Shown here in pieces: positions 17,286 to 44,653 of a stretch of DNA of 64,000 nt (position 1 is the stretch's first letter; every line of letters starts with the position of its first letter). Below the pieces are notes generated by a model. The model ran no database searches, was not told the DNA's origin, and worked only from the letters and a program-made list of their open reading frames with translations. Made by a program: the position numbers and the translations under genes. This DNA comes from Candidatus Kapaibacterium sp. (GTDB lineage Bacteria > Bacteroidota > Ignavibacteria > Kapaibacteriales > UBA4661): positions 1 to 64,000 of the forward strand of contig JALONG010000006.1 in assembly GCA_025455065.1 (NCBI GenBank), given 5' to 3'.

Positions 17286-20200
17286 ATGAACTCTCTTCAC
17301 TCTTCTGCTCAGCAGCGCTCGCCGATTCGTGGTGTGGCTCTGCGCCCCTTGGGTAGAACTGCCGACGGAGACGGTACGAATAGCAAAGCGTCGTTGGATG
17401 CTTTGGAAACGATGCAAAAGGATATGTCCTTATTGCAGCGTTCGCTTCGTTCTGTGCTGAAGGCGACGCGCATGGCAGCGAAAGGCTCGGCTGTGCAGGT
17501 ATTGGCATTTGTAGTCGCGCTCTTTGCAATGGCGAATATGGCGCACGCGCAAGCAACGTATTTTTGGGTCGGTGGTGCCAACACCGATTGGGGACGACCA
17601 TCGAACTGGAGTTTGGCTTCCGGTGGCGCTGGTGGTGCTGGCGTGCCAGGTTTCCCGTATGGTAATGCTCAAGATGTGGCAATTTTTGACGGTAATTCCG
17701 GTACAAACATTGCTATTTTAACGGGTTTTCCAACGAATGGTGCTGCGGCTTCCGTTGGGCAGATTCGTTTGCTCAATAGTCTTTCAACCGGTCCGCAAGT
17801 TACCTTTGGCGGTGCTGGTTCTACACTTGCCACAATTCGGCTTGGTGGCGTGGCAACAAGCACAAATCCTCCTCTCTTTGTCGGGTCGTTGTGTCGCTTG
17901 TTTATTGATCAGAATATTACACTTGAAACACTTACAAATCTTGGAGGTGCTGCAAGTTCTGCCGCAATTTTTGGAGATTTATCAATTCGTGTAGGTGGTA
18001 CGGTAACAAACACAGTCGCCTCCCGATTTAGAATTGAAGACGGTGGCTCGTTGCGTATGTCCGGTGGAACGTTCACCACTGCAGGTGCCGCAAGTGCTGT
18101 TTTGTACGCTCTTACCGGTAATCGTGGTTCGCTAGTGTATGATCGTAATGATAATACAACTGTTACAATTCCTGCTCCAAATAATGCAACAGAATTACCT
18201 GTAACGGTAGCAGGACCACCTGCTGACATGGTCGGTAACCTTGTTGTTCGTCGCCCAGTGGGATCTGTTACAACATTTACTGATGGAAATACATATGACT
18301 TGGGCGGAACATTGATTGTTGATGGATGTCCTCTCAACTTTCCTAATAATTTGACTATAAATCTGGCAGCAAGCCGCATATTGAATGGTGGTAACCTCTT
18401 TTCGGCAAGCGCGGCATTGAACAATAATATGTTCTATCGTGATTTGGTTGCTGCAGCCGGAGTAACGCCTCTCAACCCGACAGTATCAGATTTGTCGTTT
18501 GGTATTAACCTTGCTGGTCTGATTCCTAACGGTCAGTATTTGAACCGTTTGGCTAATAGCATATCGGGTATGAATCTGACGATTAATTCAGACTTGAACA
18601 TTGTTGCTAATGGTGGTGCCGCAGCCGGTATTTTGCTGGGCAACGCTGTAGCTGGTGGACAACTTACTATTCCAACAACACGCACGGTCACTTTACGTCG
18701 CGGTACGGGAACAATTGAAGCTGCAATGAATACTGGTCGTTTAATTGTAAACGGTATATTTGCAATGGCGACGGGGGCAACCTTCACAAATAATAATACA
18801 AACTTTAACAGTCCCATCGCGGGTATTTTGGTGAATGCCGGTGGACGTATCCAATTAAATGGTACTGCAACTATTAATGCAGGTACTGCAAATGGTGTGT
18901 TCTATGATGGTCCGACGGCAACGCTTGAATACCTTGATCGTGATGCGAGCGTAGCACGAAACGTCGTTACCTACGAAGCATTTACAGGCAGTGGTGCGTA
19001 TCCAGCGCCGGCGGGTGTCCGTAACGCGACGACACAAGAACTGCCTGCTGATATGCGTGGTGGCGTAACAGTTAATCGTCTTTATGCGGAGGCTACCGGG
19101 ACACCGAATATCGCAAGTCTTGTTGCAATGCAGCAAAACACAACAATGAGCGGTCCTCTTACGCTTACACAAGGTACATTCGGTTTGAATGGTCGCCAAC
19201 TTATACTCAACGGTACAATTACAACTAACGTTGGTGGCGGCTATATTGCTGCTGGTAATGCTGCTGGCTCATCTGCTCTTGTTTATAATTCCACAGCAAA
19301 TGGAACGATTGCTGTAACAACAGCTTCGACGGCACCGCACGGGAACATATTTAATTACATTGAAATTAATAACACTGGCAACTTGTCGTTTGTAAGTGGA
19401 CAATCACTCGCACTCAATGGTTCTGCGCCGAATATGAATTATGGTTTGAATGGTGTTGCTAACTACAATGGTCAGTTGCGTTTTAACAGTACAGGAAATC
19501 TTATTCTTAATGCCGCTCAGATAACCTTTACCGGTGCTGGCGCTGCAAACACAAACCCTGCAACGGCACAAGGCGGTCATATCCCGATTACAACGGCTTC
19601 CGTTGGCGCAATTGTTGGTGATGGTGCTGCACGGTTGATTTTTATCAATACTGCCGCAGGAACTGCTCAAATTCGTTCGTTCCCACGTTTTGCGGTGGGT
19701 GGGCAGCAATTGCTGGAATTGCGTGTTGCTGCTGATGGTACGACAATGCCAAGCCCGGGTGGAACATCTCCAACGCTGACCGACTACATGGTGTCGCTCA
19801 GAACACCCCTCCAAACTAGTATTGTTACACTCCAAAACAACGCTATTCTTCAGCTTGCTAATGGGGCAAATCTTACGGTGTTAAATCCGCCGGATTTGGC
19901 AACAGCACAGAATGTACCAAACTCCAGAGGTAATTTTATTGATGCTTCTCAAGGTGGTAGCCTTCAATTACGGGGTTATTTAACTGCGGGTAATGTTCTT
20001 ATTCCTGTCGGGGTAAGTTTTGTAGATGTGAATGGCGGGTTACTACCATCGTCGTACCGCCCAATTACCGTCAGCAATAGCATTACCGCTATTCCGGGTG
20101 AAAATTATACCGTTACCGTTACATCGAATATTGTCAATCTTGTTCCTGCTATTCCTGCACTCGCAAACAACAGTATGCGTGGACAATGGAATATTACAAG

Positions 20201-23200
20201 TGGTTCGGGTGTAAATGGTGCTGGTGGTGCGCTTCAAGTCGGTTGGGGAAATCTTGCATTTCCTACTCCTGCTATGACTGTTGCGGGTGATGAACCTGCG
20301 CAATTTAATACGACATTGATTGCTGCCGGTCCGCCAGCCGGAACAACCTTAACAACGATTCGCCGGTGGACAGGTGCAACTTATACCAACGTTCTGCCGA
20401 CAAACCCTGTTAATGGCGGTACGTTAGCAAATCCTCGTTCTATTCAGGCAACATATAACGGTGCATTAAGCAATACAATCTTCATCGTTTCCAACGAACT
20501 TTTCCCTATACACTGGGTCGGTGGTTCTACCGTTGCTGGAGACTGGGGGCAAATCAACAATTGGGCTTCCACTCGTCTTGGAACGCCGGGTTCTGCCAAC
20601 CCTCCGGGTGTGAATGATTGGGCGGTCTTTGACGCAGCTCAAGCGCCGCGTATTACAACCAATATTCCGCCAAATATTCAGCAAATGAGTGTTATTGAAG
20701 GAGCAAATGTTACGCTTGCGCCAACAGATAACACCCGTACAATGAGTATCAATCGTGATTTGGCAAATAATGACAACTTACTTGTTGGTCCAAGTTCGCG
20801 TTTGGCGATTGGTACGGGTACATTCCCCATGACACTGACAGTTCCAAATACAGCGACAGCAAATGGTCCGAATACTTCCGTGTTTGGGACGTTGGCTATC
20901 TTGGGTAATGGCACGTATAACCACGCTGACGCGAATAGTACAATTTTGATTGCAAACGGTGGAACATTGCATCTTGGAACGGCATCGGCATCCTCACTTC
21001 CGGCTGTTACAACTGGTTTCCAAAAGAACGGTGCTGGAGCTGTCTTACGATATGGCGGCAATCAAAATTCTACCCCACCGTACATCTTTGGTGCGCCAGC
21101 AGAACAGAATGCAACTTTGCTCTATGAAGACGCAAATGGCGGCACGGATATTCGTACAGGCGCTGCTGCCGCAAATGGTGAATTGCCAGCATCGCCATTC
21201 CCGGGTAACATGATTATCAATAAAACTGTTGCCGGTTCGGTATTTGGTCTTGTCGGTAATTATAGCATTGCAAGTACCGCTACACTTCAATCTGGTATTT
21301 GGGATTTGACACAAGCATTTATGGGTGGCGGTGGATTTGGTTTAACAGTTGGTACTGGTCCGAACCCATCTGTTGCTGCGCCCGGTAGCCGTACACTTAA
21401 AATCACTGGTACATTACCAAATACAGGACTTCGCGGTAATGTTGCAAACTCAACACTAACGTTGAATGGTCCCGGTGTTGCCGATTTGCAATTTGTTCCC
21501 GGCGGTGAATTCCTCAATGCTCTTACGATGAACGATGCTTCTAATGCTGCCCCAAATGCTGCATTGTCGGCTGTATTAAAAACAAATTTGACAGTTGGTG
21601 CGGGTAACTTTGTGATGACTAACGCTCGTACTGCGGTGAATATGGATTACGGTTTAACAATCCTTACTCCCCATATACTTCGTTTACAAGGTGGTGCTAA
21701 TACTATTACAAGTGGACGTATCCTGAATCAAGGTACGGTAGCAATTCCAACAGGTGGTGCTTTAGCATTACCAGCGACAGTAGCCGCTGGCGGCTTAGAC
21801 ATTGCGACGACCGGCACAATGAGTATCATCAATGATGGTAACGTGACGGGTACGGCGGGAGTAAATCCTGTTCGCTATCTCAACGTTGCTTCACGACTTT
21901 TATACTCCGCTGAAGGCGCAGGTTTGGCAAATAAAAACACGGATGATATGGTATTCCCCCAGATTTTTAATGCCAGTTTGGTTATTGACAAAAACTCTTC
22001 GGGTACGACAACGACTAATACGGTAACCTTAAACAACTGTAAAGTTGTTACGCAAGGTACAGTACAACTTGTTGGCGGTGATTTGCTTTTGAATGGTCAG
22101 TTGTTCAAAATCGGTAGTGCAACACAATTAAATCCTACGCCTGCTGCTGCTGATTTCTTGAATAATACAATTTCCACGACTGCACGTCTCTTACAAGGCG
22201 GTGGTCGTATTTTTGGTGATAATGCGGCTGGTAATTCATCATTGGTCTATAACAGTATTCATAATGCAAATCTTTGGCTTGGTGAGTTAAATGTTGCAAT
22301 GACTGCACATCGCGGACGCTTCTTGAATAAACTGGAAATTAACGGTCCGGCAACACTTACGCTTTCAACTGCTGCTGTTGTTAATATCCAATCTGCTGGC
22401 GTGCCTACGTGCGGCGGAGCAATGGAAACAACCTATCAAGGAACATTGCGTTTGGATAATAGTACGGGTAATTTAGCTTTGAACGGTAGTGCGCTTCGCC
22501 TGACCGGTACCGTTGCTCCAACAGCAGGTCAAGTATTGACGACGGTCACGGGCGGTACAATTTCAGGTGACGCGCTCCCCGGCACATCAATTGAAATTAC
22601 GTCGCAGAGAGTCTTTAATATTCGTATGGCTCCGGGTGCCGGTGCTGCCTTGCGTGATTTTGGGCTGAACCCCGCAGCAACTGCTCCTGCTGTAGGGCAG
22701 CACCAAATTTCCTTGATTTCTTCGATGACAACGGATATTTTGGGCGTAACAAGGAATATCCTTTCGTTGGCAAGCTCCTCAGTAAATCTTACTGTTACCG
22801 GAACAGGGACAAACTCAACATCCGGTAATACAACGGGTGGACAAGCGGCATTTGGTCTTAACAATAATAACTTCGTTGACCTTTCGCCGGGCGGTACGCT
22901 CACAATGTCAATCCCGAACAATACTACCCGTATGTTCCCGATTGGTGTTACGAATAACGCCGTTACGTTTATCCGTCCTGCGCCACTGACCATTACGAAT
23001 CAAGGCGGCGCACAGGACACCTACACAGTTGGTGCGCAGCGTGGACTGACATTCCAAAATTTGGTATATCCCGATAAAGTAAACGTTCAATGGACCATCG
23101 CACGCGGCGGTGCTTCGGCGATGAATCAAACTGTTCAGTTTGGTTGGCACACCGAACATGAAACTGCTGCGCCCGGCTTCCAACGTCAAAACAGTTTCCC

Positions 23201-26200
23201 AACGCAGTGGAACGGCACAACCTATCCGCAGTTGGCAGGCTCACTTTCATCAACGATGACCGTTAGCACTCCGCCGGGTATGGAATGGTCGCAAACCATT
23301 ACCTTCCCTAGCGTTAGTATGACTGGTGGTGGAAATCCGTTTGGTGTGATAGCTCCTCCAGCTGCGATTATCATGGCAGCAGACTCACTGTCGCCAAGTG
23401 GCTCCGGCGGCTTTAATTCCCCTAACGTAGGGCGTTTTGCAAGCCCGAATGCCGGAAACTTGACGATTACAAGCGGCACACCGTTCAATTTGCGCATTGG
23501 TGCTTTTAACGGATTGAACCTTCCTTCGCCCGTGCGCATTAGCTTGAACAACATCCGCGCAGATTTCTACCCGCTTCCGGGTGGTAATGCGGTCTTCAAC
23601 ACAACCGGCTCTGCGACAGCAGCGACACCGTTTGTTTTGAACGTACCGAATAATCCTGTGTATGCTTCAACGGGTGTTGTCAGTTTACCTGCAAACGTAA
23701 CGGTGGACTGGCTTAATCCCGGCGCAGCATCCAGCACACAAGCGATTTTGCGCCTGTTTGACCCGACTGGTACACTAACATCCGCAACTTTGATTGTTAC
23801 AATCAACGCTCCGCCACTTCGTCCTTCGACGATTGCCTACACGCAAATCCAAGGCTCAAGCAGAGGTACGGTAGGCTTTAATGGCGGTGGTTTGGGGCAG
23901 TTTAATATCACCGGCGGTGTATCCTTCCCGATTAACTTTGGCTTATATTCCAATGCGAATTTGCTTATCCCCACAACGGCAACCACAACCTTTATGGCAA
24001 CGATTGAATCCATCCCGGGTGTAACGGTTGCGGGGGCAAATCTCGTCCCGACACCGGGTACGCCGCAAGCACCGACAACAGCAACGGTGAATGCGAACGT
24101 GGCAATCGGCAGTTTGCGTCCGATTTTCAACTGGACTAATCCTCCCGTCGGTGGCGGTATCACGAAAGCTCTCGTGCGGTTGTCATGGTTTAGCGGTGGT
24201 GAAATGGGTTCCCCGCAACTCGGCTCGACAACAGTGATTGTAACGCTTAGTACAGGCGGCACAGTGCCTGTGCGTTTGGGTTATGCGGTGAATTCAGGTG
24301 ATATTTTGGATGCGAATTTGGCAACACAAGGTATTAACGGTGGTGCGTTTACGCTCGCAAACCCCATTATCAGCAATCGTATTATTCCGGTAAACTTTGC
24401 TGCCTTTGCTAACATGGGCGCTGTATTGCCTCCTGTTCCGGCTCCAACGCAGGTGCGATTGTCTATCGCGGCTGACCCGATAAATCCTTCGGAGGTATTC
24501 TCGTTAGAAGGGACAACGGAAACAAACTTTAATGCTGACGGTACAGGGACGCTCCTGCCACGAGTTGTTTACAATGCAAACAACCCCACGACAGCAGTCG
24601 CCGTGATGACATTATCGGTAATTAGCGGTCAAACAACCCTCTTGACAACGACAGCGCAAGTACGTGTTTCCACTACGGGTTCACTTGCGACACGGACATC
24701 GTTTAATTCTGTCGTTGGACCAACACGAGGTCATACAAGCGAAGCCGTTGGCGGTATCGGCATAAACGGTGGTAATCGTAATATCCCGAGTGGTCGTCCG
24801 TTTGACATTGATTTCGGATATTTCAACGGTAGTGATGTTCTGGCGCTAGGTGGCGCAACCCCGATGCAGCTTTCGATTGTACCGGGAAGTATCATGCCGT
24901 TTACGGAAAACGTAACGCTGGACGGCACAACGACGGTGAACGTGTTCCCGATTACTCGTCAAGCCCGTTTGAGCGGTGCAATTTTGAATTGGCGCAACCC
25001 GACGGTAGCAGGACCGATTACCGTGCGTATTCGTCTTGAGCCTATCGGTATGTTGTCCGGTTTTCTTGCTCCGATTCAAGCAACCGAAGCAACCATCACC
25101 ATCTCTACCGGTGCATCTGTCCCCGTTGCCTTGGCGATGAGCCAAATTTCTTCAATTGGTACGCAAGGTGTAAACGGCGGTAACTTGAACATCATCAATA
25201 ATGTACCGTTCAACATTGACCTTGGTTTGTTCGATGCAAACGGTGTTCTCGCGCAGTCGCTCTCTAATTCTTCCGTCGGTCTGACGGTAGAAGCGGTAAC
25301 AGCCGGTCAGGCATTTACGGTGAGCGGAAACGTATCGGGCGTGTTTGTAAACCAAAGCGGTATTCGGTTGAATAACGTTGCGGTTCAGTGGACAAACCCG
25401 ACAGCGCCAACAACACAAGTACGATTGCGTGTTTCCACCACCGCAGGTGCAGGACCGATTGCTTCGACATCGGTCGTTGTTACGCTCTCAGCAGGTTCGC
25501 TCTTCCCTGTGATTGTCGGCTTTACTCCGGCAACAGGTGGACCAGGTTCGGTGGTCTTGATTAGTGGTGCGAACTTTACGGGCGCAAATAGTGTAACTTT
25601 TGGCGGCGTACAAGCGGCATCCTTCACGGTATTAGGTGATGGGGTGATTTCGGCTGTTGTTCCAGCCGGAGCAATTAGCGGACCGATTACGGTTTCACGC
25701 TCTGCGGGACCGAACTTCCCAGCCGGCTCCGGTACGTCCATGGGCGTATTTACGGTTGGCACTCCGCCGACAATTACCTCGTTTAGTCCGATACAGGGCG
25801 GAAATGGTACAGTTATCACGATTAACGGTACAGGCTTCGGCTCTGTTGCGAACATCTTGAATGTGAGCGTTGCCGGAGTGAACGCATCGGTACAAAGCAT
25901 CAATACAACGGGAACACAGATGGTTGTGCAGATTATCGGCACATCGCTTACCCCGCGTATTGCACCGATTACGATTGCTTCTTTGACCGGTACTGCTACC
26001 TCTGCGCAGCCTTTCACATTCAATCTGCCGCCGGCTATTACCAGTGTTACGCCAAACAGCGCCATTGTGAATGGTCAAGATATTCCGATTATCATTCGCG
26101 GTGCAAACTTTAATATCAATCTCTTTCCGCCGCCGGATGCCGTTCAAGCCGGTGTATATTTCTCACTTTTCAATACGCCGCAGGCTATCAGCCCGTCATC

Positions 26201-27995
26201 GCGTATTGCGGTGCAGAGTGTAACGCCGACGGAAATACGTGCGACAATCTCCGGTACGTTTAACAACATGGTCGGACAGCGCTTTATCACGGTGCTGAAC
26301 AATGACGGTCAATATATCAGCATTCCGTTCCAATTGGTACAAGGCGGCACACCGACGCTCACGAGCATTACGCCCAGCGTAACCTCTGCAAGTGGTGTTG
26401 CGTTTATTGCGACGATTGAGGGTACGAACTTCTTCGGTTCTGCCGGAACGTCGGTAACAATTAACAACACCGCAGTAACGGTTATTTCTGCTCAGGCAAC
26501 ACAAATTCAGATTCTTGTTCCTGCATCATTTAACCAAGTGGCAGGAACGTTGAATGTGGTTATTCGTAACTCCGACGGTCAGCAAGTACAAGGAAGAATC
26601 ACCGTAACTGACCCGGGCAGAGTAGCAATTTCGAGAATTACTCCGCCTCGGGCTGTTGTTGGTTCACCGAATACGACCATTACCATCGAAGGTTCGGGCT
26701 TCTTCTTGACCGCAGACGTAACGTTCAATAATGTTTCGCTCCAAGTTCTGCCCGGACGCTCAACAACACAGATTGTGGCTGTAATACCGGCAAATTCGCT
26801 TGCGACCTTCGGAACGTTCCCGATTCGCGTTACCAATCCGGCAGGTTTCTCCGGTGCGGCACTCTTTAACGTCGGGTATGCACCGCCTGTTGTGAACAGT
26901 GTTGTAACAGCAAGCGGCAATATGCCCGGTCAGACCTCAACGGCTGCATCGGTCTTCCCGTTCACGTTGGCTGTGAATGGCTCAGGCTTCCGCCAAGGCG
27001 TTACAGTAACGTTTAACGGCACACAACTCAATTTGCTTTCCACATCTGATACACAGGTTATTGCTCAAGTTCCTGCCGGATTGAATACGCTGGGTGTATT
27101 CCCGGTTGTGCTTTCCAACGCAGACGGCTTGTCGTCAAACGCTACCTTTAGTATCGGTCCGCCAAATGCGCCTGAGATAATACGTGTCAGCCCCAACGTT
27201 ACCAACGCAACGGCGACACCGTTTACGATTACCATCACAGGACGCAATTTCACACCGGGTCCACAAGGTACACCGTTACCGGGCTTCCAAGTTCTCTTTA
27301 ACGGTCGCGCATTGCAGGTGCTTTCGGTTACGCCGACGCAAATTACCGCCTTTGTTCCGGCAGGGGTGAATAACCAAGAAGGCAATGCAACAGTTCTCGT
27401 GGTAAATCCTGACGGACAGCGTTCCAATCAGGCAACGATTAACGTCCTTTGTTCGCTTTGTCCTCTAATAACCAGCGTTTCGCCCGGTTCACTTCGTTCA
27501 AGCTATCCCTTTGACGTTACCTTCACCATTAACGGCTCGAACTTCCGTCCGGGAGCGACTGTAACGGTTGGCGGTGCGCCGCTTCGTATCGTAAGTGTGA
27601 GTGATGGTCAAATAATCGCTGTGGCTCCGGCAGGCTTCTTCCTTGGTAATTCGGTTATTCGCGTTCAGAATGTGGATAATACGGTTGTTACGCTCTTTGA
27701 TGCTTACACTGTTAGCGTCCGTGAGGTGATGACGGTAGAAACCATGACCGGAAGCGTGTATCCGAACCCGATTGAAGACATGATAACCTTTGAAGCACAA
27801 GTACCGAAAGCAGGGCAAATTCGTGTACGTGTAACCGACGTTCTCGGCAACACGGTCGTTTTGTTCACCCAAGCAATCGGTGCAGGTAAATTCACCCACC
27901 AACTTGACGTAAGCGCACTCCCGACGGGTGTGTATATGTTCGAGATGACCGATGGTGAACGCCGCTTCATCGAAAAACTTGTAAAGCGTAAATAA
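17286..27995 (+). CDS. giant T9SS-exported surface protein with IPT/TIG repeats
   Basis: A 3569-residue cell-surface or secreted protein. GGAG nine bases before the ATG at 17286 supports this start. The leader is unusual: about 65 polar residues precede the hydrophobic core (VQVLAFVVALFAMANM) and cleavage is expected after AHA at residue 88. Two large beta-strand-rich modules follow (about 90-1070 and 1072-2040), each opening with a WVGG...DWG...NW motif and closing with a Trp-Ile...QxGW element. Next are five related repeats of 120-150 residues (about 2045-2738), each with an (F/I/V)NGG or NAG core followed by PF-I-FG-F. Then come eight IPT/TIG immunoglobulin-like domains (about 2739-3478; for example ITSFSPIQGGNGTVITINGT). 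The end is a T9SS sorting domain (VYPNPIEDMITFEAQVP ... LPTGVYMFEMTDGERR). Likely an adhesin or matrix protein; no catalytic motif is seen. The first half looks more A+T-rich than neighbouring genes. Confidence 0.88.
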   Translation: MNSLHSSAQQRSPIRGVALRPLGRTADGDGTNSKASLDALETMQKDMSLLQRSLRSVLKATRMAAKGSAVQVLAFVVALFAMANMAHAQATYFWVGGANTDWGRPSNWSLASGGAGGAGVPGFPYGNAQDVAIFDGNSGTNIAILTGFPTNGAAASVGQIRLLNSLSTGPQVTFGGAGSTLATIRLGGVATSTNPPLFVGSLCRLFIDQNITLETLTNLGGAASSAAIFGDLSIRVGGTVTNTVASRFRIEDGGSLRMSGGTFTTAGAASAVLYALTGNRGSLVYDRNDNTTVTIPAPNNATELPVTVAGPPADMVGNLVVRRPVGSVTTFTDGNTYDLGGTLIVDGCPLNFPNNLTINLAASRILNGGNLFSASAALNNNMFYRDLVAAAGVTPLNPTVSDLSFGINLAGLIPNGQYLNRLANSISGMNLTINSDLNIVANGGAAAGILLGNAVAGGQLTIPTTRTVTLRRGTGTIEAAMNTGRLIVNGIFAMATGATFTNNNTNFNSPIAGILVNAGGRIQLNGTATINAGTANGVFYDGPTATLEYLDRDASVARNVVTYEAFTGSGAYPAPAGVRNATTQELPADMRGGVTVNRLYAEATGTPNIASLVAMQQNTTMSGPLTLTQGTFGLNGRQLILNGTITTNVGGGYIAAGNAAGSSALVYNSTANGTIAVTTASTAPHGNIFNYIEINNTGNLSFVSGQSLALNGSAPNMNYGLNGVANYNGQLRFNSTGNLILNAAQITFTGAGAANTNPATAQGGHIPITTASVGAIVGDGAARLIFINTAAGTAQIRSFPRFAVGGQQLLELRVAADGTTMPSPGGTSPTLTDYMVSLRTPLQTSIVTLQNNAILQLANGANLTVLNPPDLATAQNVPNSRGNFIDASQGGSLQLRGYLTAGNVLIPVGVSFVDVNGGLLPSSYRPITVSNSITAIPGENYTVTVTSNIVNLVPAIPALANNSMRGQWNITSGSGVNGAGGALQVGWGNLAFPTPAMTVAGDEPAQFNTTLIAAGPPAGTTLTTIRRWTGATYTNVLPTNPVNGGTLANPRSIQATYNGALSNTIFIVSNELFPIHWVGGSTVAGDWGQINNWASTRLGTPGSANPPGVNDWAVFDAAQAPRITTNIPPNIQQMSVIEGANVTLAPTDNTRTMSINRDLANNDNLLVGPSSRLAIGTGTFPMTLTVPNTATANGPNTSVFGTLAILGNGTYNHADANSTILIANGGTLHLGTASASSLPAVTTGFQKNGAGAVLRYGGNQNSTPPYIFGAPAEQNATLLYEDANGGTDIRTGAAAANGELPASPFPGNMIINKTVAGSVFGLVGNYSIASTATLQSGIWDLTQAFMGGGGFGLTVGTGPNPSVAAPGSRTLKITGTLPNTGLRGNVANSTLTLNGPGVADLQFVPGGEFLNALTMNDASNAAPNAALSAVLKTNLTVGAGNFVMTNARTAVNMDYGLTILTPHILRLQGGANTITSGRILNQGTVAIPTGGALALPATVAAGGLDIATTGTMSIINDGNVTGTAGVNPVRYLNVASRLLYSAEGAGLANKNTDDMVFPQIFNASLVIDKNSSGTTTTNTVTLNNCKVVTQGTVQLVGGDLLLNGQLFKIGSATQLNPTPAAADFLNNTISTTARLLQGGGRIFGDNAAGNSSLVYNSIHNANLWLGELNVAMTAHRGRFLNKLEINGPATLTLSTAAVVNIQSAGVPTCGGAMETTYQGTLRLDNSTGNLALNGSALRLTGTVAPTAGQVLTTVTGGTISGDALPGTSIEITSQRVFNIRMAPGAGAALRDFGLNPAATAPAVGQHQISLISSMTTDILGVTRNILSLASSSVNLTVTGTGTNSTSGNTTGGQAAFGLNNNNFVDLSPGGTLTMSIPNNTTRMFPIGVTNNAVTFIRPAPLTITNQGGAQDTYTVGAQRGLTFQNLVYPDKVNVQWTIARGGASAMNQTVQFGWHTEHETAAPGFQRQNSFPTQWNGTTYPQLAGSLSSTMTVSTPPGMEWSQTITFPSVSMTGGGNPFGVIAPPAAIIMAADSLSPSGSGGFNSPNVGRFASPNAGNLTITSGTPFNLRIGAFNGLNLPSPVRISLNNIRADFYPLPGGNAVFNTTGSATAATPFVLNVPNNPVYASTGVVSLPANVTVDWLNPGAASSTQAILRLFDPTGTLTSATLIVTINAPPLRPSTIAYTQIQGSSRGTVGFNGGGLGQFNITGGVSFPINFGLYSNANLLIPTTATTTFMATIESIPGVTVAGANLVPTPGTPQAPTTATVNANVAIGSLRPIFNWTNPPVGGGITKALVRLSWFSGGEMGSPQLGSTTVIVTLSTGGTVPVRLGYAVNSGDILDANLATQGINGGAFTLANPIISNRIIPVNFAAFANMGAVLPPVPAPTQVRLSIAADPINPSEVFSLEGTTETNFNADGTGTLLPRVVYNANNPTTAVAVMTLSVISGQTTLLTTTAQVRVSTTGSLATRTSFNSVVGPTRGHTSEAVGGIGINGGNRNIPSGRPFDIDFGYFNGSDVLALGGATPMQLSIVPGSIMPFTENVTLDGTTTVNVFPITRQARLSGAILNWRNPTVAGPITVRIRLEPIGMLSGFLAPIQATEATITISTGASVPVALAMSQISSIGTQGVNGGNLNIINNVPFNIDLGLFDANGVLAQSLSNSSVGLTVEAVTAGQAFTVSGNVSGVFVNQSGIRLNNVAVQWTNPTAPTTQVRLRVSTTAGAGPIASTSVVVTLSAGSLFPVIVGFTPATGGPGSVVLISGANFTGANSVTFGGVQAASFTVLGDGVISAVVPAGAISGPITVSRSAGPNFPAGSGTSMGVFTVGTPPTITSFSPIQGGNGTVITINGTGFGSVANILNVSVAGVNASVQSINTTGTQMVVQIIGTSLTPRIAPITIASLTGTATSAQPFTFNLPPAITSVTPNSAIVNGQDIPIIIRGANFNINLFPPPDAVQAGVYFSLFNTPQAISPSSRIAVQSVTPTEIRATISGTFNNMVGQRFITVLNNDGQYISIPFQLVQGGTPTLTSITPSVTSASGVAFIATIEGTNFFGSAGTSVTINNTAVTVISAQATQIQILVPASFNQVAGTLNVVIRNSDGQQVQGRITVTDPGRVAISRITPPRAVVGSPNTTITIEGSGFFLTADVTFNNVSLQVLPGRSTTQIVAVIPANSLATFGTFPIRVTNPAGFSGAALFNVGYAPPVVNSVVTASGNMPGQTSTAASVFPFTLAVNGSGFRQGVTVTFNGTQLNLLSTSDTQVIAQVPAGLNTLGVFPVVLSNADGLSSNATFSIGPPNAPEIIRVSPNVTNATATPFTITITGRNFTPGPQGTPLPGFQVLFNGRALQVLSVTPTQITAFVPAGVNNQEGNATVLVVNPDGQRSNQATINVLCSLCPLITSVSPGSLRSSYPFDVTFTINGSNFRPGATVTVGGAPLRIVSVSDGQIIAVAPAGFFLGNSVIRVQNVDNTVVTLFDAYTVSVREVMTVETMTGSVYPNPIEDMITFEAQVPKAGQIRVRVTDVLGNTVVLFTQAIGAGKFTHQLDVSALPTGVYMFEMTDGERRFIEKLVKRK

Positions 27996-37797: not shown

Positions 37798-37848
37798 AAT
37801 CTGGTGTGCGTTAAAAAAGTGATTTCTCATTTCCATTTTTATCATATT

Positions 37849-38646
37849 ATGAATCAAAACACTCTCAAAACCGCGCTGCGTCTTGTGGCTGTCGCTGTGA
37901 TACTTTTCGCCGCAGCCACAGAGCGCTCCGAAGCGCAGGGCGGTCGCCCGCGCCGCTTCTCGCTTGGGCTGTATGGCAGTTACGGTATGGATATGCACAG
38001 CGCAAATTTTCTGGATTTGCCGAACAATCCTGTCTTTACGCCACGCACAGGCGGCACAAATGAACCGGGACCGTTTACGGGAACAACCTCATGGAATCCC
38101 GTTGTTGGTATTGTCATGGAGTATTTGCTGGACGAGCGTTTGAGTGTTGGCTTGCGAGCGCATTACGCCACGCAAAACGCCCGTTTGACCACCCGTGCAA
38201 ACTACCGCGTCGGGCGCGATGACGGTACGTTTGCCGACGCAACCAGCGAATATGCCATTAGCGATTCCATTCAAATCATCGGTCTTGAGCCGATGGCAAG
38301 CTACAACGTGTGGGAAGGGTTATCCGTACATTTGGGCGTGAGGCTGAATTTTGCTACGTCGGCGCGGTATAATCAATCGGAAACACTGATTGCTCCGGCA
38401 GATGGTAGTTTCTTCGGTGGCACAACGCCCATTCGTACCCGCAATGTCACAGTGGGTGATTTACCAAACGCAAACACCTTCACCATTGCGCCGATTGTTG
38501 GTTTGAGTTACGCCATTCCGATTATTGACCGCTTGACAGTACAGCCGGAAGTGTTCTTTTCCTACGGTTTGATGCCTGTTGTACGGGATTTGCAGTGGAC
38601 GGTGAACTCACTTCGCCCGGGACTTGCGGTGAAGTACAAATTTTAA
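37849..38646 (+). CDS. outer-membrane beta-barrel protein
   Basis: A 265-residue exported protein from ATG 37849. The signal peptide ends near ERSEAQGG. The mature part alternates aromatic and polar residues as in porin-like barrels (RRFSLGLYGSYGMDMHSA, RLSVGLRAHYATQNARL, FTIAPIVGLSYAIPI) and ends in a strand with C-terminal aromatic residue (RPGLAVKYKF), the usual signal for BAM insertion. About eight to ten strands are likely. No specific family is recognised; it may be a PorT/OmpA-barrel-like protein. A terminator follows. Confidence 0.75.
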   Translation: MNQNTLKTALRLVAVAVILFAAATERSEAQGGRPRRFSLGLYGSYGMDMHSANFLDLPNNPVFTPRTGGTNEPGPFTGTTSWNPVVGIVMEYLLDERLSVGLRAHYATQNARLTTRANYRVGRDDGTFADATSEYAISDSIQIIGLEPMASYNVWEGLSVHLGVRLNFATSARYNQSETLIAPADGSFFGGTTPIRTRNVTVGDLPNANTFTIAPIVGLSYAIPIIDRLTVQPEVFFSYGLMPVVRDLQWTVNSLRPGLAVKYKF

Positions 38647-38670
38647 CGCAGGAATTGACACGATTGCTTC

Positions 38671-38705
38671 GCAGCTCGCTTCCTAAGCGGGCTGCGGCTG
38701 TTTTT
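38671..38705 (+). terminator. intrinsic terminator after the beta-barrel gene
   Basis: Stem GCAGCTCGCTT with AAGCGGGCTGC (one G-T pair) and loop CCT, followed by GGCTGTTTTT. Its stem resembles the hairpin at 4492-4516. Confidence 0.7.
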
Positions 38706-38759
38706 GGGGGTGCAGATTGATGAAACACTGTTTTGTTTTTATTCTCCAACGGAGGAACG

Positions 38760-38855
38760 ATGAATATTCGTAAACTCTTTGGTGAAATTCCATTTTTTAC
38801 CGATTTTGCATACACCACGACTTTTTTCTCCCACTTGATTCACCACCCGCCATGA
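38760..38855 (+). CDS. 31-codon leader ORF overlapping the RND pump start
   Basis: A short frame with a near-ideal ribosome binding site (GGAGGA, three bases from the ATG). It encodes 31 residues starting MNIRKLFGEIPFFTDF and ending SHLIHHPP. Its TGA overlaps the ATG of the RND gene in an ATGA arrangement (38852-38855), the classic layout for translational coupling. The RND gene has no ribosome binding site of its own apart from sequence inside this frame. It could be a regulatory leader peptide or simply a loading device. No family is recognised. Confidence 0.55.
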   Translation: MNIRKLFGEIPFFTDFAYTTTFFSHLIHHPP

Positions 38856-41800
38856 ATCTCCCTTTACTCAGCCTCAAACGCCCTGTTTTTGCGATTGTTA
38901 TGTCGCTTGTTATCATGCTTTTTGGCGTTATGGGCTATTCGCTGCTTGGGGTACGCGAATTTCCTGCTATTGACCCGCCCGTTATCTCTGTCCGCACCGT
39001 CTATTCCGGCGCAAACCCTGAAATTGTCGAATCACAAATCACCGAACCGCTTGAAAAGGCGATTAACGGTGTACAGGGTGTGAGAACGATTTCCTCGAAC
39101 AGCGCTCTGGGCGTGAGTATTATCACCGTCGAATTCACCGTCGAGGCAGATTTGGAGCAGGCTGCAAACGATGTGCGCGATAAAGTTGCGCAAGCGCAGC
39201 GCCAACTGCCACAAGACATTGACGCACCACCGGTGGTAACAAAGGCAGACGCAAGCGGCGACCCGATTTTTTTTATGCCCGTGCAGAGCCGTTCCATGAA
39301 CATCATGCAGCTTTCGGCATATGCGGAAAACGTTCTGCAAGAGCGCTTGCAGACGATTCCGGGTGTAAGTCAGGCGCTCATTTTTGGGATTAAGCGCTAT
39401 GCCATGCGGCTCTGGATTGACCCCGCACGGTTAGCCGCGTATAATCTCACTATTCAGGATGTGCAAGAAGCGCTGAACCGCGAAAATGTTGAACTGCCAA
39501 GCGGGAAAATCTACGGCAATCAAACTGAACTGACCGTGAAAACCTTTGGGCGATTGGACAAAGAAGAAGATTTCAATAACCTGATTTTACGCCAAACAGA
39601 CAACCGTATTATTCGTTTCCGCGACATCGGGCGTGCGGAACTTGGTCCCGAAAACGAGGAAACATCGCTTCGGCGCAATAATTCGCCCGGAGTTTCTATT
39701 GCCATTATTCCGCAACCCGGGGCGAATGTGGTTAGTATTGCGGATGAATTATACAAACGCTTCGAGATTATTAAGCGCGAACTGCCGCCGGATATGATTA
39801 TTGCTGTCGGGATTGACCGCAGTCGTGCGGTGCGGGCATCAATTCTGGAAGTGCAGGAAACGCTGGCAATCGCATTTTTGCTGGTGGTCATCGTTATTTT
39901 CCTCTTTTTCCGTGATTGGAAAATTGCCTTGCGCCCGCTTATTGACATTCCCGTTTCGCTTATCGGCGCGTTTTTTATCATGTACATTTTCGGTTTTTCG
40001 ATTAACGTTCTGACGCTCTTGGCAATCGTCTTAGCGACGGGCTTGGTGGTGGATGACGGAATTGTGGTAACGGAAAATATCTACAAAAAAATCGAGCAGG
40101 GAATGTCGCCTCTGGCGGCTGCCAAAGCGGGTTCAACGGAGATTGTGTTCGCCGTTATTTCCACATCAATCACGCTTGCGGCGGTGTTTCTACCCGTGAT
40201 ATTTCTGCAAGGCTTTGTGGGAGCGCTGTTCAGGGAATTTGGTGTTGTTATTGCCGCATCGGTCTTGATTTCCGCCTTTGTCTCGCTCACGCTCACGCCT
40301 GTTTTGAGCGCAAAACTTTCCGGCGATGCGCATAATCGCTCGAAGTTCTACACAATGACAGAGCCGTTTTATCAGTGGTTGGACAGGGCGTATCGCAGAA
40401 CGTTGGAGAAATTTTTGCGTCATCGTGCGTGGGGCATTGCGATTTTGTTGGCAAGTTTTGGCGCGATTTATCTGCTCGGTACAACACTCAAAAACGAACT
40501 CGCACCGCTTGAGGACAAAGGTTTTCTGCGGATGCCGATGACTGCACCCGAAGGAACAAGTTTTGATGCGATGGAAGGAATCATTGGCACGGCAGCGCAA
40601 TTTATCATGGATTCCGTGCCGGAACACCGCATGGTTTTTGGCATTACCGCAGGTGGTGGTGGTTCGACGGGTGCGGTAAATTCAGGCTTTGTGAGTATTC
40701 TGCTTGCCGATGCCGGTGAACGCAAGCGTACACAAATGCAGATTGCGGAATATCTCGGCAAAAAAATGCGCGGATTTAATGCCGCCAGAGCAATTCCCGT
40801 GCAGGAACAGACGATTTCCACAGGCTTCGGCTCAGGATTTGGTCTGCCCGTGCAGTTTGTGATTCAAAATTTGGATTTTGAAAAACTGAAAAGCAAACTC
40901 CCGCAATTCCTCGAAGAAGCGCAGAAAGACCCGACGTTTCAGACAGTGGACATCAATTTGAAATTTAACAAACCCGAACTTTCGGTTTCGATTGACCGCC
41001 TGAAAGCGACGGAATTAGGCGTTTCGGTACGGGATATTTCCAACACGCTGCAACTGGCGCTTTCTAACCGCCGTTTTGGATATTTCCTCATGAACGGCAA
41101 GCAATATCAGGTCATCGGGCAGGTAGAGCGCGACGACCGCGACCGCCCGGGTGCGCTTCAGGGCTTTTATGTGCGGAATAATCGCGGTCAGCTTATTCCG
41201 CTCGATAATTTAGTGCAGTTTAACGAGGTTTCAAGCCCTCCGCAGGTTTTTCACTACAACCGCTATAAATCCGCAACCATTTCTGCCGGACTTGCTCCGG
41301 GAAAAACTATCGGCGACGGCGTAAAAGCTATGGAAGCAATAGCCGCGCGGGTTTTGGATGACAGCTTTAGTACGTCGCTTTCAGGCGCGTCACGGGATTT
41401 TGCGGAAAGTGCGTCGAACACAAGTTTTGCATTTTTGTTGGCGTTATTGCTTATTTATCTCATTTTAGCGGCGCAATTTGAAAGTTTCCGCGACCCGTTT
41501 GTGATTATGCTCACCGTACCGCTTGCAGTCTTGGGTGCGCTTTTGTCGTTGTGGGCTTTTAACCAAACGCTGAATATCTTTTCGGAAATTGGTATTATCA
41601 TGCTCATCGGTTTAGTAACGAAAAACGGCATTTTGATTGTGGAATTTAGCAATCACCTTCGCGCCGAAGGGAAAAATCTTTTTGAGGCGGTGCTGGACGG
41701 CTCTGCTGCACGCTTGCGTCCGATTTTGATGACAAGCCTGGTAACAGCTATCGGCGCACTGCCGATTGCGCTGGCGCTGGGTGCAGCCTCACAAAGCCGC

Positions 41801-42001
41801 GTCCCGCTTGGGATTGTGGTTGTGGGCGGAGTGCTGTTTTCGCTGGTGCTGACGTTGTATGTGATTCCGGCGATGTACACCTATCTCGCAAGCAAGAAGC
41901 AATCAAGCCTTGAGGAAGAAACTCCTTTGCCGCAGGAAACTTCTTTGTCGCAAGTGCGGGAAGAGCAAGATGTGAAGCCTGCTCTGGAAACTGTCAGTTA
42001 A
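38852..42001 (+). CDS. RND multidrug efflux permease (HAE1/AcrB type)
   Basis: A 1049-residue inner-membrane trimeric pump exporting hydrophobic or amphiphilic compounds by proton antiport. N-terminal LSLKRPVFAIVMSLVIMLFG and REFPAIDPPVISVRTVYSGA are family-typical. The proton-relay aspartate pair is in ATGLVVDDGIVVTENIYKK near residue 397. Two six-helix blocks flank two large periplasmic loops. No membrane-fusion protein or TolC partner is next to it, so partners would be elsewhere. It begins inside the stop of a short leader ORF and ends with its own terminator, so it is separate from the TonB-sigma unit downstream. Confidence 0.95.
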   Translation: MNLPLLSLKRPVFAIVMSLVIMLFGVMGYSLLGVREFPAIDPPVISVRTVYSGANPEIVESQITEPLEKAINGVQGVRTISSNSALGVSIITVEFTVEADLEQAANDVRDKVAQAQRQLPQDIDAPPVVTKADASGDPIFFMPVQSRSMNIMQLSAYAENVLQERLQTIPGVSQALIFGIKRYAMRLWIDPARLAAYNLTIQDVQEALNRENVELPSGKIYGNQTELTVKTFGRLDKEEDFNNLILRQTDNRIIRFRDIGRAELGPENEETSLRRNNSPGVSIAIIPQPGANVVSIADELYKRFEIIKRELPPDMIIAVGIDRSRAVRASILEVQETLAIAFLLVVIVIFLFFRDWKIALRPLIDIPVSLIGAFFIMYIFGFSINVLTLLAIVLATGLVVDDGIVVTENIYKKIEQGMSPLAAAKAGSTEIVFAVISTSITLAAVFLPVIFLQGFVGALFREFGVVIAASVLISAFVSLTLTPVLSAKLSGDAHNRSKFYTMTEPFYQWLDRAYRRTLEKFLRHRAWGIAILLASFGAIYLLGTTLKNELAPLEDKGFLRMPMTAPEGTSFDAMEGIIGTAAQFIMDSVPEHRMVFGITAGGGGSTGAVNSGFVSILLADAGERKRTQMQIAEYLGKKMRGFNAARAIPVQEQTISTGFGSGFGLPVQFVIQNLDFEKLKSKLPQFLEEAQKDPTFQTVDINLKFNKPELSVSIDRLKATELGVSVRDISNTLQLALSNRRFGYFLMNGKQYQVIGQVERDDRDRPGALQGFYVRNNRGQLIPLDNLVQFNEVSSPPQVFHYNRYKSATISAGLAPGKTIGDGVKAMEAIAARVLDDSFSTSLSGASRDFAESASNTSFAFLLALLLIYLILAAQFESFRDPFVIMLTVPLAVLGALLSLWAFNQTLNIFSEIGIIMLIGLVTKNGILIVEFSNHLRAEGKNLFEAVLDGSAARLRPILMTSLVTAIGALPIALALGAASQSRVPLGIVVVGGVLFSLVLTLYVIPAMYTYLASKKQSSLEEETPLPQETSLSQVREEQDVKPALETVS

Positions 42002-42083: not shown

Positions 42084-42165
42084 TGCATCCATTCTTGTCA
42101 ACCATTCCCGGCAATCTGTCGTCTTGAGCGATAACAACAGTTTTTCACGTTTTTTGGAGACGGCA

Positions 42166-42897
42166 ATGACAACAACATCCTTGCGCTACGGCGCTTACGA
42201 ACTGAAAATGACGATTCCCGCTTCAACGCTGCGCGGATTTTTCGGCTCACTCACACTCTTGGTGGCGGTGTTTATCGGGTATAGCGCGGTTGTTTTGGCA
42301 AATCGAATGACATTGACGAAAATGCCGACAATCGCAAGCACAAAACTAATGCACCTTCCGCCGCCTGTTTCTGCACAGCCCGCCACTCCTCCTCCGCCCA
42401 CAACATTGCTTGCAAGCGGACTTGCCGCACGTGCCGGAACGCCTGTTCCTGTGCCGGATGCGCTTGTTTCTTCGGATGAGGCTGTATTTGCCAATGTGGA
42501 TGAAATCTCACGAGCAAGCGCGGAAGGCGGTAATGGTGTTGAAGAGGGAACGATGTCGCTCATCACAGATTCTACTGAAGTGCGAGAGGAAGAGCCGGAA
42601 ATGTATGATATATTTGCCGTCGAAAAAGAGCCGTATATTGAGATTCGGGATCTGCAACGTAGAGTAGTCTATCCTGAAATGGCGAAACGAGCAGGAATAC
42701 AGGGCATTGTTATTGTTCGTGTCTTGGTCAGCAAAGATGGAAAGCCCAAAAAATATGTTATTGAGCGGAGCGATTCGGAATTGTTGAACAATTCTGCTTC
42801 GGATGCTGTGATGAATAGCCGCTTTACACCTGCAATACAGCAAAATCGCCCTGTTGAATGTTGGGTGAGTATTCCTATTGCTTATCGCTTACGCTAA
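42166..42897 (+). CDS. TonB family energy transducer (TonB-A)
   Basis: A 243-residue TonB protein that links proton-motive force (through ExbB/ExbD) to outer-membrane receptors. GGAG seven bases before ATG 42166 supports this start rather than the TTG at 42124. A membrane helix spans residues 22-45, followed by a Pro-rich stretch (LPPPVSAQPATPPPP), a linker ending in acidic EVREEEPEMYD and a C-terminal TonB domain (residues 160-243: VVYPEMAKRAGIQGIVIVRV ... FTPAIQQNRPVECWVSIPI). It is strongly similar to the second TonB at 43565-44653 from the Pro-rich region to the end, so the two arose by duplication. It is the first gene of the unit. Confidence 0.9.
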   Translation: MTTTSLRYGAYELKMTIPASTLRGFFGSLTLLVAVFIGYSAVVLANRMTLTKMPTIASTKLMHLPPPVSAQPATPPPPTTLLASGLAARAGTPVPVPDALVSSDEAVFANVDEISRASAEGGNGVEEGTMSLITDSTEVREEEPEMYDIFAVEKEPYIEIRDLQRRVVYPEMAKRAGIQGIVIVRVLVSKDGKPKKYVIERSDSELLNNSASDAVMNSRFTPAIQQNRPVECWVSIPIAYRLR

Positions 42898-42923
42898 ATT
42901 TGTTCATTCAAACCCTAGATTTC

Positions 42924-43556
42924 ATGCGCTCTTCCGAATCACATATCACTGAACGTATTCAGCAGTATTGTCAAAGCACAAGCGATGTTGAGAAGCGTTC
43001 TGCATTTCGGCACTTTTACGACACCGCAAAAAACCTTGTGTTTGCTGTTGCATCCCGCATAGCGCCAAACTATGCGGCTGCGGAGGATTTGTCGCAAGAA
43101 ATATGGTTGAAAATCTTGCGAAGTGTCTGCTCATACCGAGCCGAAGCCTCATTCGGTGCGTGGTTGAGGAGTGTTGCGCTCAGAACGTGGCTGGATATGC
43201 GCAAAAGACCGTCGGAGAAAACGCAGCGCGAACTTTGCCGTGTGAGTTTGTCGGAAAGCCTCCTCGAAAGCGGTGAAGAAGGCATTATTGTTTTCGATGG
43301 CAGTTTCCAAGCAAAACCTGATGTTCTGGCTGAAGCAGAAAGCGTACAAGCCTTGATAGAAAGCGCTTTGCAACGACTTACCATAGCAGAGGCAAATGTT
43401 TTTCGTGCAAGGCATAATGGCGAGTTATCATTTCGAGAAATTGCCGAAGAACTTGGCGTAAGCGACGGTACGGTGAAAACACTCCATTTTCGTGCAATGA
43501 AAAAACTCCAAGTTCTGCTCAAGCCTATTTTTGAGACTTCCTCCACACTTTCATAA
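42924..43556 (+). CDS. ECF (group 4) RNA polymerase sigma factor
   Basis: A 210-residue sigma factor. Region 2 is AAEDLSQEIWLKILRSV with GAWLRSVALRTWLDMRKR (-10 recognition), and region 4 is the helix-turn-helix LSFREIAEELGVSDGTVKTL (-35 recognition). The linker is somewhat long. The ATG at 42924 is favoured; an open frame extends back into the TonB-A gene. It lies 26 bases after TonB-A and 8 bases before the second TonB, so all three are likely co-transcribed. The second TonB's cytoplasmic N-terminus is its probable anti-sigma partner. No iron-responsive FecR-type gene is present. Confidence 0.92.
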   Translation: MRSSESHITERIQQYCQSTSDVEKRSAFRHFYDTAKNLVFAVASRIAPNYAAAEDLSQEIWLKILRSVCSYRAEASFGAWLRSVALRTWLDMRKRPSEKTQRELCRVSLSESLLESGEEGIIVFDGSFQAKPDVLAEAESVQALIESALQRLTIAEANVFRARHNGELSFREIAEELGVSDGTVKTLHFRAMKKLQVLLKPIFETSSTLS

Positions 43557-43564
43557 TTTCAGCA

Positions 43565-44653
43565 ATGCAAGCAACGACCTCACCCAATGACCGTGAACGG
43601 CTGGAACACTTGATGATAAGCGCTGTTTACGACGACATCACGGACGCAGAGCGTAAAGAACTTAATATGCTGCTCCGTCAAAATCCTCGTGCATTGGATG
43701 AACTTCTCGCACTTCAGGATTTGCGCCGTTTGATGACAAAACCTCTGTATCGCGCAGAGGCAAATCGCACCAAAGAACAACAATCGGAAGCCCGCGAAGC
43801 CTTTTTTGATGCGCAGTGGAAGGTGCTTGATGAAGAATTGGAGGCGGCGTTTCGTCAAAATAAAGCGCCTATTTTGCCAGAGTCTGTGCTCATAAAAAAC
43901 GGTGCAATGCCTCGTAACTATGCACCGAACAAGCCGCTCATTCGACCGTCGGAACTCATTCGCTATATTCCTCGTGCCACAGAACGAGGTTTTGTGGGCG
44001 CTGCACTACTTTTAACCTTGCTCATTGGGGGATACTCCTTGTTTCTTATTGCCACTGCAAGCGGCTTACCGAAGCGTCCTGCTATTAACAAAATGAAACT
44101 GACGAATCTTCCGCCGCCGCCAACAGCCCAGGATGACACGCAAGCACCGCCCCCGCCACCAAGCGCCTCCGGTCCTGCCGCAAGAGCCGGAACGCCTGTT
44201 CCCGTGCCGGATGCGCTTATTGCGCCTGATGTGAAAGACTTTGCGAATGTGGATGAAATCTCACGCGCCAGCACGATAGGCGGCGACGGGAATGACCAAG
44301 GGTATTTGGGTTTGGCTTCGGATGTGGATACGGAAGTCCGCGAAGATGAGCCGAGCGCCTACGATTTTATCCCCGTTGAAAAAGAGCCATACGTTGATAT
44401 TCGAGAATTGCAGAAAAAGGTTGTGTACCCCGATATTGCCAAGCGTGCGGGGATTGAGGGGAAAGTCAATATTCGTGTTCTCGTTGGGAAAAATGGCGTT
44501 CCCAAAAAGCACATTATTGAATCAAGCGATTCAGATTTGCTGAACGACGCGGCGGTGAAAGCGGTGATGAACTCTGTGTTTACGCCTGCTATTCAAAATA
44601 ACCAGCCCATTGACTGTTGGGTGAGTATTCCGATTGTGTTTCGGTTGCGGTGA
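43565..44653 (+). CDS. TonB protein with anti-sigma-like cytoplasmic domain
   Basis: A 362-residue single-pass protein. Residues 1-140 are predicted cytoplasmic and helical: RERLEHLMISAVYDDITDAE then RKELNMLLRQNPRALDELLA, a layout like the N-terminus of membrane anti-sigma factors (short helix, acidic turn, second helix with the NPxxxDELL motif). No Zn-binding HxxxCxxC is seen. One membrane helix spans residues 143-165. The periplasmic part repeats TonB-A: Pro-rich (LPPPPTAQ), the shared RAGTPVPVPDAL and FANVDEISRAS segments and a TonB C-terminal domain (about 280-362). The gene starts 8 bases after the sigma factor, the standard place for its anti-sigma factor. The anti-sigma role is inferred from position and helix pattern; the TonB domain is clear. 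Confidence 0.85.
   Translation: MQATTSPNDRERLEHLMISAVYDDITDAERKELNMLLRQNPRALDELLALQDLRRLMTKPLYRAEANRTKEQQSEAREAFFDAQWKVLDEELEAAFRQNKAPILPESVLIKNGAMPRNYAPNKPLIRPSELIRYIPRATERGFVGAALLLTLLIGGYSLFLIATASGLPKRPAINKMKLTNLPPPPTAQDDTQAPPPPPSASGPAARAGTPVPVPDALIAPDVKDFANVDEISRASTIGGDGNDQGYLGLASDVDTEVREDEPSAYDFIPVEKEPYVDIRELQKKVVYPDIAKRAGIEGKVNIRVLVGKNGVPKKHIIESSDSDLLNDAAVKAVMNSVFTPAIQNNQPIDCWVSIPIVFRLR

Follow-up and report, generated by a model that had tools for sequence, protein, structure and literature searches.

An ECF sigma factor gene followed by a gene for a predicted anti-sigma/TonB fusion in Candidatus Kapaibacterium

We analyzed a window of 64,000 nucleotides (nt) of Candidatus Kapaibacterium sp. 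(contig JALONG010000006.1, positions 1 to 64,000), in which three closely packed genes encode a plain TonB protein (TonB1), an extracytoplasmic function (ECF) sigma factor and a second, longer TonB-like protein. Its homology, its predicted fold and the position of its gene make it very likely that residues 1 to about 100 of the longer protein form an anti-sigma domain, and the remainder has the parts of a complete TonB. With moderate confidence, we favor the reading that this fusion is a sensor of TonB engagement with feedback on TonB supply. On sequence grounds, we document the two domains and how they are conserved, the coupled gene order and an ECF-type promoter motif.

The features of the cluster are listed in Table 1. 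In agreement with the initial annotation of the window, all three genes lie on the forward strand, and the fusion gene starts exactly 8 nt past the stop codon of the sigma factor gene. No rival anti-sigma gene for the same sigma factor adjoins its gene. TonB1 has a single hydrophobic helix. An alternative TTG start of its gene at 42124 is unlikely because the promoter motif extends to 42123 and because GGAGA is located ahead of the ATG at 42166.

Table 1. Features of the sigma-fusion cluster in the window
Feature	Position	Strand	Evidence
ECF-type promoter-like motif	42096-42123	+	-35 TGTCAACC 42096-42103, 16-nt spacer, -10 CGTC 42120-42123
TonB1, plain TonB, 243 amino acids (aa)	42166-42897	+	ATG 42 nt past the -10 motif; TonB_C E 1.9e-20
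ECF sigma factor, 210 aa	42924-43556	+	TIGR02937 E 4.6e-29 (NCBIfam); Sigma70_r2 and r4 (Pfam)
Anti-sigma/TonB fusion, 362 aa	43565-44653	+	Continuous open reading frame (ORF); TonB_C present
Probable anti-sigma domain, fusion residues 1-100	43565-43864	+	AlphaFold2, homology to plain anti-sigma factors, fold matches
TonB-derived cytoplasmic stub and transmembrane helix, fusion residues 127-166	43943-44062	+	27/40 identical to the C89 TonB; modelled helix 128-165
Disordered proline-rich periplasmic linker, fusion residues 167-280	44063-44404	+	Predicted local distance difference test (pLDDT) mostly <50; 96/113 identical to the C89 TonB
TonB C-terminal domain, fusion residues 281-362	44405-44650	+	PF03544 E 2.8e-19 over 286-361; 75/82 identical to the C89 TonB

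Homology links the N-terminal part of the fusion to plain anti-sigma factors. Contig C87 of the same genome carries a related ECF sigma factor gene followed by a gene for a plain 335-aa membrane protein, the N-terminus of which matches fusion residues 10-104 (E 0.003). When profiles of 7 fusion and 8 plain anti-sigma N-termini were aligned, the hhalign probability was 99.1. The plain profile scored 7/7 fusions at 26-60 bits and the fusion profile scored 8/8 plain proteins at 16-54 bits; the E-values of these cross-matches refer to sets of 1, 7 or 8 sequences, so that bit scores and the probability are the more suitable measures. Furthermore, a profile of the fusion N-terminus plus helix revealed anti-sigma-like homologues beyond the family among 294 genomes of the class. 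The fetched loci beyond the family contained 8 ORFs with the domain, and the family TonB_C profile matched none of them. Six were mapped (L152, L153, L157, L159, L164, L167), and in each a sigma-like gene precedes on the same strand, as judged by eye, at spacings from a small overlap up to 177 nt. The homologues in L159 and L164 pass the Pfam cut-off for zf-HC2, which we take to be a zinc-type anti-sigma motif. A plasmid collection yielded no match.

The predicted fold is in line with the homology. In an AlphaFold2 model of the N-terminal 133 residues, helices 7-21, 27-39 and 41-58 are packed as a bundle and are followed, after a weak linker, by a fourth helix at 69-99. Residues 11-50 had a pLDDT of 90-92 and the fourth helix one of 65-79; over the whole model, the mean was 68.9 and the predicted template modelling score (pTM) 0.42. 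This part of the protein was not predicted to be disordered. According to an excerpt of PMC7406223, class I anti-sigma domains consist of an N-terminal three-helix bundle, a linker and a fourth helix, and the fusion domain is predicted to have this layout. Thus, homology, predicted fold and gene position agree with the anti-sigma-like N-terminal domain proposed at the outset, and it is highly probable that this domain binds the neighboring ECF sigma factor. The cytoplasmic extension of about 140 residues, which had been assigned to the second TonB only, is indeed confined to it, but the new domain makes up only about residues 1-100. The rest includes a TonB stub, since residues roughly 127-143 (SELIRYIPRATERGF) are the counterpart of the cytoplasmic stub in plain TonBs.

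The C-terminal part of the fusion contains TonB_C, a single transmembrane helix (a hydrophobic stretch at about residues 144-162 by hydropathy) and a proline-rich periplasmic linker. In the full-length model (mean pLDDT 57.8, pTM 0.25), residues 128-165 form one long helix, the linker is disordered and the C-terminal part adopts a TonB_C fold, with pLDDT 78-88 over residues 301-360. The nearest relative of the TonB half is the TonB of contig C89 in the same genome (85% identical), the gene of which comes after two exbD genes. The part-by-part identity to this protein (Table 1) shows that the fusion consists of an anti-sigma domain ahead of a complete TonB. To TonB1, the fusion is 59% identical over residues 130-362 (15/40 in the stub and helix, 65/112 in the linker, 55/82 in TonB_C), and the earlier view that the two proteins have almost all of their periplasmic sequence in common was too strong. 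The four motifs listed in its support do occur in both TonBs. However, all four are also present in the C89 TonB, and the first two are unchanged in the C34 TonB; therefore, they do not mark the TonB1/fusion pair. We consider it likely that the TonB half works as a TonB, and the identity to an ExbD-linked TonB is suggestive of a partnership with ExbBD and receptors. Further TonB paralogues (L004:973-2214 on contig C24 of the same genome, L059 and L060) carry another kind of cytoplasmic extension at the N-terminus; the ORF list of L004 shows no sigma gene.

For the family survey, 10 genomes of Candidatus Kapaibacterium relatives were used, each in 90 to 680 contigs and including that of the window (G000). 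The sigma-fusion pair was detected in seven of them (G000, G198, G199, G200, G201, G202, G205) and is thus not absent from relatives. The architecture is complete in five genomes besides G000, and in G202 the contig ends inside the gene. In the search of these 10 genomes the fusion was not found in G203, G204 and G206; the absence is uncertain in the latter two because G206 is 70% complete and the TonB pieces of G204 end at contig ends. When a genome collection was scanned with the fusion N-termini, 6 loci were recovered, which correspond to the same six relatives (four named Ignavibacteria bacterium, two Candidatus Kapaibacterium sp.). The sigma gene directly precedes the fusion gene in all seven loci, with a 4-nt overlap in four and a distance of 6-8 nt in three. 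Moreover, an additional TonB-type gene adjoins every pair. Upstream, this is a full TonB gene in five loci and a gene for a TonB_C protein of 154 aa in G201; in G199, a TonB gene is located downstream. A gene for a YfbK-like von Willebrand factor protein is located ahead of the sigma gene in the modules with a plain anti-sigma gene and in the G199 and G201 fusion loci (assigned by Pfam in L105 and by matching ends in the other loci).

Two related loci were noted. In G230, which belongs to another family of the order, the gene for an ECF sigma factor 42% identical to that of the window is followed by one for a 307-aa anti-sigma-like protein (L107:5310-6886). This locus is at most a candidate outgroup fusion: its TonB_C match is sub-threshold (E 0.0062; 17.4 bits versus 24.6), and the family TonB_C profile gave no match. 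On contig C30 of G201, a plain anti-sigma-like gene (L114:4422-5534) has no sigma gene directly ahead, the nearest sigma-like gene being about 2.5 kb off on the other strand. In this genome, the YfbK-linked sigma gene is followed by the TonB fusion rather than by a plain anti-sigma gene.

The upstream regions have TTGTCAACC in common, followed 16-17 nt on by CGTC or GGTC; we take the AAC and CGTC elements to resemble ECF promoters. The window contains one match to the motif, compared to a mean of 0.04 in shuffles, and the strict motif had 29 matches in the 10 genomes (in 8 of them), compared to 11 for the reversed control. By eye, a sensible downstream gene was recognized at 22/29 strict sites, namely tonB1 of a fusion cluster (5), a yfbK-like gene (5), another ECF sigma gene (6), a gene for a small secreted protein with a YDWGNV-like motif (3) or one for another common protein (3); at 7 sites none was clear. 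At many of the 22 sites (e.g., L176, L180, L185, L186, L192, L193, L195, L198) the mechanical ORF begins ahead of the motif, and therefore the gene assignment assumes that the true start codon lies past it. The motif heads all seven fusion clusters and is located directly ahead of the plain tonB gene in five of them. Because of this position, the plain TonB, proposed earlier as the first target, is a plausible one; its role as a competitor, suggested as an alternative, would be conjectural. The five yfbK sites are all N17-GGTC, four of the five tonB1 sites are N16-CGTC, and the tonB1 site of G198 is N17-CGTC; this difference in spacing and box is compatible with each sigma factor reading its own promoter. 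A similar motif precedes yfbK in the YfbK modules of G000, G200 and G204. In a third ECF sigma group of the family (L176, L182, L186, L187, L192, L195), nearly the same motif (N16-CGTC) is present just upstream, and cross-talk between sigma factors is therefore possible.

These observations suggest the following circuit. The anti-sigma domain of the fusion would hold the ECF sigma factor at the inner membrane. On balance, TonB engagement is the signal that we would expect: the TonB half would be engaged in the envelope, either bound and pulled by loaded receptors via ExbBD or recruited away when demand is high. Release of the sigma factor would then follow from a conformational change transmitted along the single helix or from successive proteolytic cuts, the last of them by an M50 protease. 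Once free, it would transcribe its own cluster, including the plain tonB gene directly behind the motif in 5/7 loci. TonB supply would rise, and newly made fusion protein would recapture the sigma factor. The genome of the window has six M50 peptidase matches in four reading frames (best E 2.1e-43), and thus release by proteolysis is possible. Since the same genome harbors a classical ECF-FecR-receptor locus (L141:1-3108, contig C70), the fusion is not the sole possible envelope-to-sigma route, and the classical route may run in parallel. A lack of signaling domains in this genome (0 STN matches there; 1/123 in the order) was considered and dropped after the L141 receptor was seen. The N-terminus of this receptor resembles STN by eye and is not called by PF07660; therefore, the STN counts in the order may be too low.

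The fusion could instead be an ordinary membrane anti-sigma factor in which the TonB tail serves only as a tether or as a protease-controlled sensor, with no transport or receptor engagement. We consider this rather unlikely. It is consistent with the other periplasmic parts of related plain anti-sigma factors (low-complexity tails, HEAT repeats), with the M50 peptidases and, according to an excerpt of PMC13088901, with the unrelated envelope-spanning tail of the Bacteroidota Dma anti-sigma factors. However, a whole TonB was acquired, including stub and helix and close in every part to an ExbD-linked TonB, and in two close pairs of fusions the TonB half has a low ratio of nonsynonymous to synonymous substitution rates (dN/dS), 0.07-0.10 (NG86).

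In the opposite polarity, an engaged TonB half would keep the sigma factor bound and an idle fusion would free it, so that the circuit would read a lack of work or a loss of proton motive force. The sequence does not fix the polarity, and the predicted output, more TonB, fits either direction; polarity and release route alike may be as outlined above, as candidates only. We nevertheless regard this inversion as unlikely: in excerpts on described cell-surface signaling, the anti-sigma factor is inactivated after ligand binding, which involves its proteolysis (PMC9249621) and requires contact of the receptor with TonB (PMC11637429).

Several results weigh against the proposed sensor. No family scored above its curated cut-off in the N-terminal 130 residues of the fusion (Pfam, NCBIfam), and no Pfam anti-sigma family matched the window protein itself. 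A sequence search of Protein Data Bank chains with the domain plus helix gave five matches up to E 10, none of them an anti-sigma factor. No Foldseek match reached E 0.001; the top match was ynzC (E 0.9), and the best anti-sigma match had E 1.0. In favor of the domain, 9 of the 43 Foldseek matches were RsiW, RslA or MucA chains. After realignment of 154 chains, the best four entries were RsiW, MucA, RslA and MucA with Z 6.2-6.6 (next 5.2), values at which helical bundles may match through a common arrangement, as they may under about 13. The structural matches thus support an anti-sigma fold without proving it. The promoter data include further points against the sensor. In G199 and G201, the motif stands ahead of yfbK and not directly ahead of the sigma pair; there it heads the cluster, with putative cotranscription of yfbK and the sigma pair across gaps of 182 and 121 nt, respectively. 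In G000, the strict motif had three sites (the fusion cluster, the YfbK module on C87, and one on C44 without a clear gene), compared to three for the reversed control. All three lie away from the 49 plug-domain matches of this genome, and the predicted output is therefore TonB supply, not receptors. Finally, sigma distances were correlated in Mantel tests with those of the anti-sigma domain (r 0.77 for 14 pairs, 0.88 for the 7 fusions) and also with those of the TonB half (r 0.77 for 6). Since the TonB half tracks the sigma factor as the anti-sigma domain does, we dropped this test as a sign of coevolution.

Also counting against the sensor, dN/dS of the whole N-terminal part plus linker was 0.27-0.35 (NG86) or 0.46-0.69 (YN00). 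This higher ratio would suit an N-terminal domain that is a functionless remnant on what is just a TonB, as would the faster divergence of this part between G000 and G200/G205 (57-58% identity, versus about 80% in the TonB half). However, the first 62 codons gave 0.07-0.08 (NG86), the predicted fold is intact, and the domain and its sigma neighbor are kept together in 7/7 loci. Two close pairs and short stretches underlie all of these dN/dS figures, and in the G000 pairs no dS was obtained with NG86 for the anti-sigma part. Given the low ratio in the first 62 codons, we do not favor a vestigial domain, which is very unlikely. An assembly or gene-calling artefact, which might be suspected from the fragmentation of the 10 genomes and the metagenomic origin of the six named records, is ruled out for practical purposes by independent assemblies, with unbroken ORFs in six other genomes (one ending with its contig), two genera in all and halves that diverge differently.

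Concerning the origin of the fusion, the fusion-linked sigma factors did not form one clade in a tree of 16 sigma factors, and a single clade was rejected by the approximately unbiased (AU) test (p 0.002). Those of G199 and G201 joined the sigma factors of plain YfbK modules with support 100. For the TonB halves, too, a single clade was rejected (AU p 2.3e-5, with one long branch dropped). The halves of G199 and G201 grouped with TonBs of their own genomes (support 82-85), the G198 half grouped with other TonBs of G198, i.e., its TonB1 (79-87), and those of G000, G200 and G205 were nearest to C89-type TonBs with weak support (47-50). The trees may be explained by repeated formation of the fusion, by recurrent conversion of the TonB half by resident TonBs, or by loss of an old fusion in the plain modules. 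The anti-sigma-domain tree has weak inner support, with 33-58 at several nodes, and therefore does not allow a choice between one fusion event and several. More tentatively than the sensor itself, we propose a one-protein form of cell-surface signaling, in which TonB itself is the anti-sigma factor and its physical engagement with the outer membrane is read directly in the cytoplasm and adjusts TonB supply, and which arose more than once in this family.

Among the titles and abstracts listed from the open-access literature (subscription papers and preprints being outside the scope), none described an anti-sigma domain fused to TonB; the nearest systems were the Dma family, VreA and IutY. The FecI-FecR-FecA system likewise combines an ECF sigma factor, a single-pass membrane anti-sigma factor and a tie to TonB-dependent uptake. 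In the available sections of PMC9249621 and PMC11637429, however, its TonB is separate, and the periplasmic part of the anti-sigma factor senses the signaling domain of the receptor. The Dma anti-sigma factors, as excerpted from PMC13088901, share with the fusion an anti-sigma domain at the N-terminus, a single helix, a long disordered tether, a C-terminal domain that spans the envelope, and an adjoining ECF gene, but this C-terminal domain is a beta-barrel in place of TonB_C. In the PUMA3 system (VreA-VreI-VreR) of Pseudomonas aeruginosa, a TolA/TonB-like C-terminal domain also takes part in ECF signaling; according to the portion of PMC2729926 consulted, it belongs to the periplasmic receptor VreA, which has a signaling domain, and not to an anti-sigma factor. 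Pfam found neither an STN nor a FecR domain in the fusion, the N-terminal part of which is predicted to be helical and lies ahead of the transmembrane helix. IutY is another fused polypeptide of TonB-linked ECF signaling, but it joins sigma and anti-sigma factor, and a TonB part is not described in the excerpt of PMC9249621. Within the family itself, the YfbK-ECF-anti-sigma modules (C87 = L111; L108-L110) have a homologous sigma factor and a homologous anti-sigma domain. In contrast to the fusion, their anti-sigma factor is plain with a low-complexity tail, and Pfam detected no TonB_C in L111 and L108.

A different pairing was observed at L112:3321-5985 (contig C15 of the same genome) and in L115-L120, where an ECF sigma gene is followed by a gene for a protein that in L112 comprises 668 aa and is built of a short N-terminus in the cytoplasm, a single helix, TonB_C and a sorting tail of the type IX secretion system (T9SS) type. 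Relatives matching from the N-terminus were present in seven of the 10 family genomes (G000, G198, G199, G200, G201, G202, G204). The sigma gene was seen ahead in five maps; in those of G199 and G201, an antisense ORF overlaps and masks it. Among the matches listed for the order, none beyond the family reached this N-terminus.

Upstream of the cluster, at window positions 37804-42001, are a gene for a small membrane-type protein and an efflux gene of the resistance-nodulation-division (RND) type, both named by eye. Both adjoin the cluster in G202 (L103) as well; in L102, L104, L105 and L106 they do not. Elsewhere in the window, a single ORF of 3574 codons spans positions 17271-27995.

If the sensor reading is true, the fusion, with its sigma-binding domain on the cytoplasmic side, would act as a natural, built-in reporter of TonB engagement, and the mechanical action of TonB in the envelope is hard to watch from inside the cell. 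TonB supply would then be set by direct feedback, and not via a receptor signaling domain and FecR. The absence of a single clade of TonB halves suggests that the coupling is of enough use for it to be rebuilt, or to be kept matched to the resident TonB.

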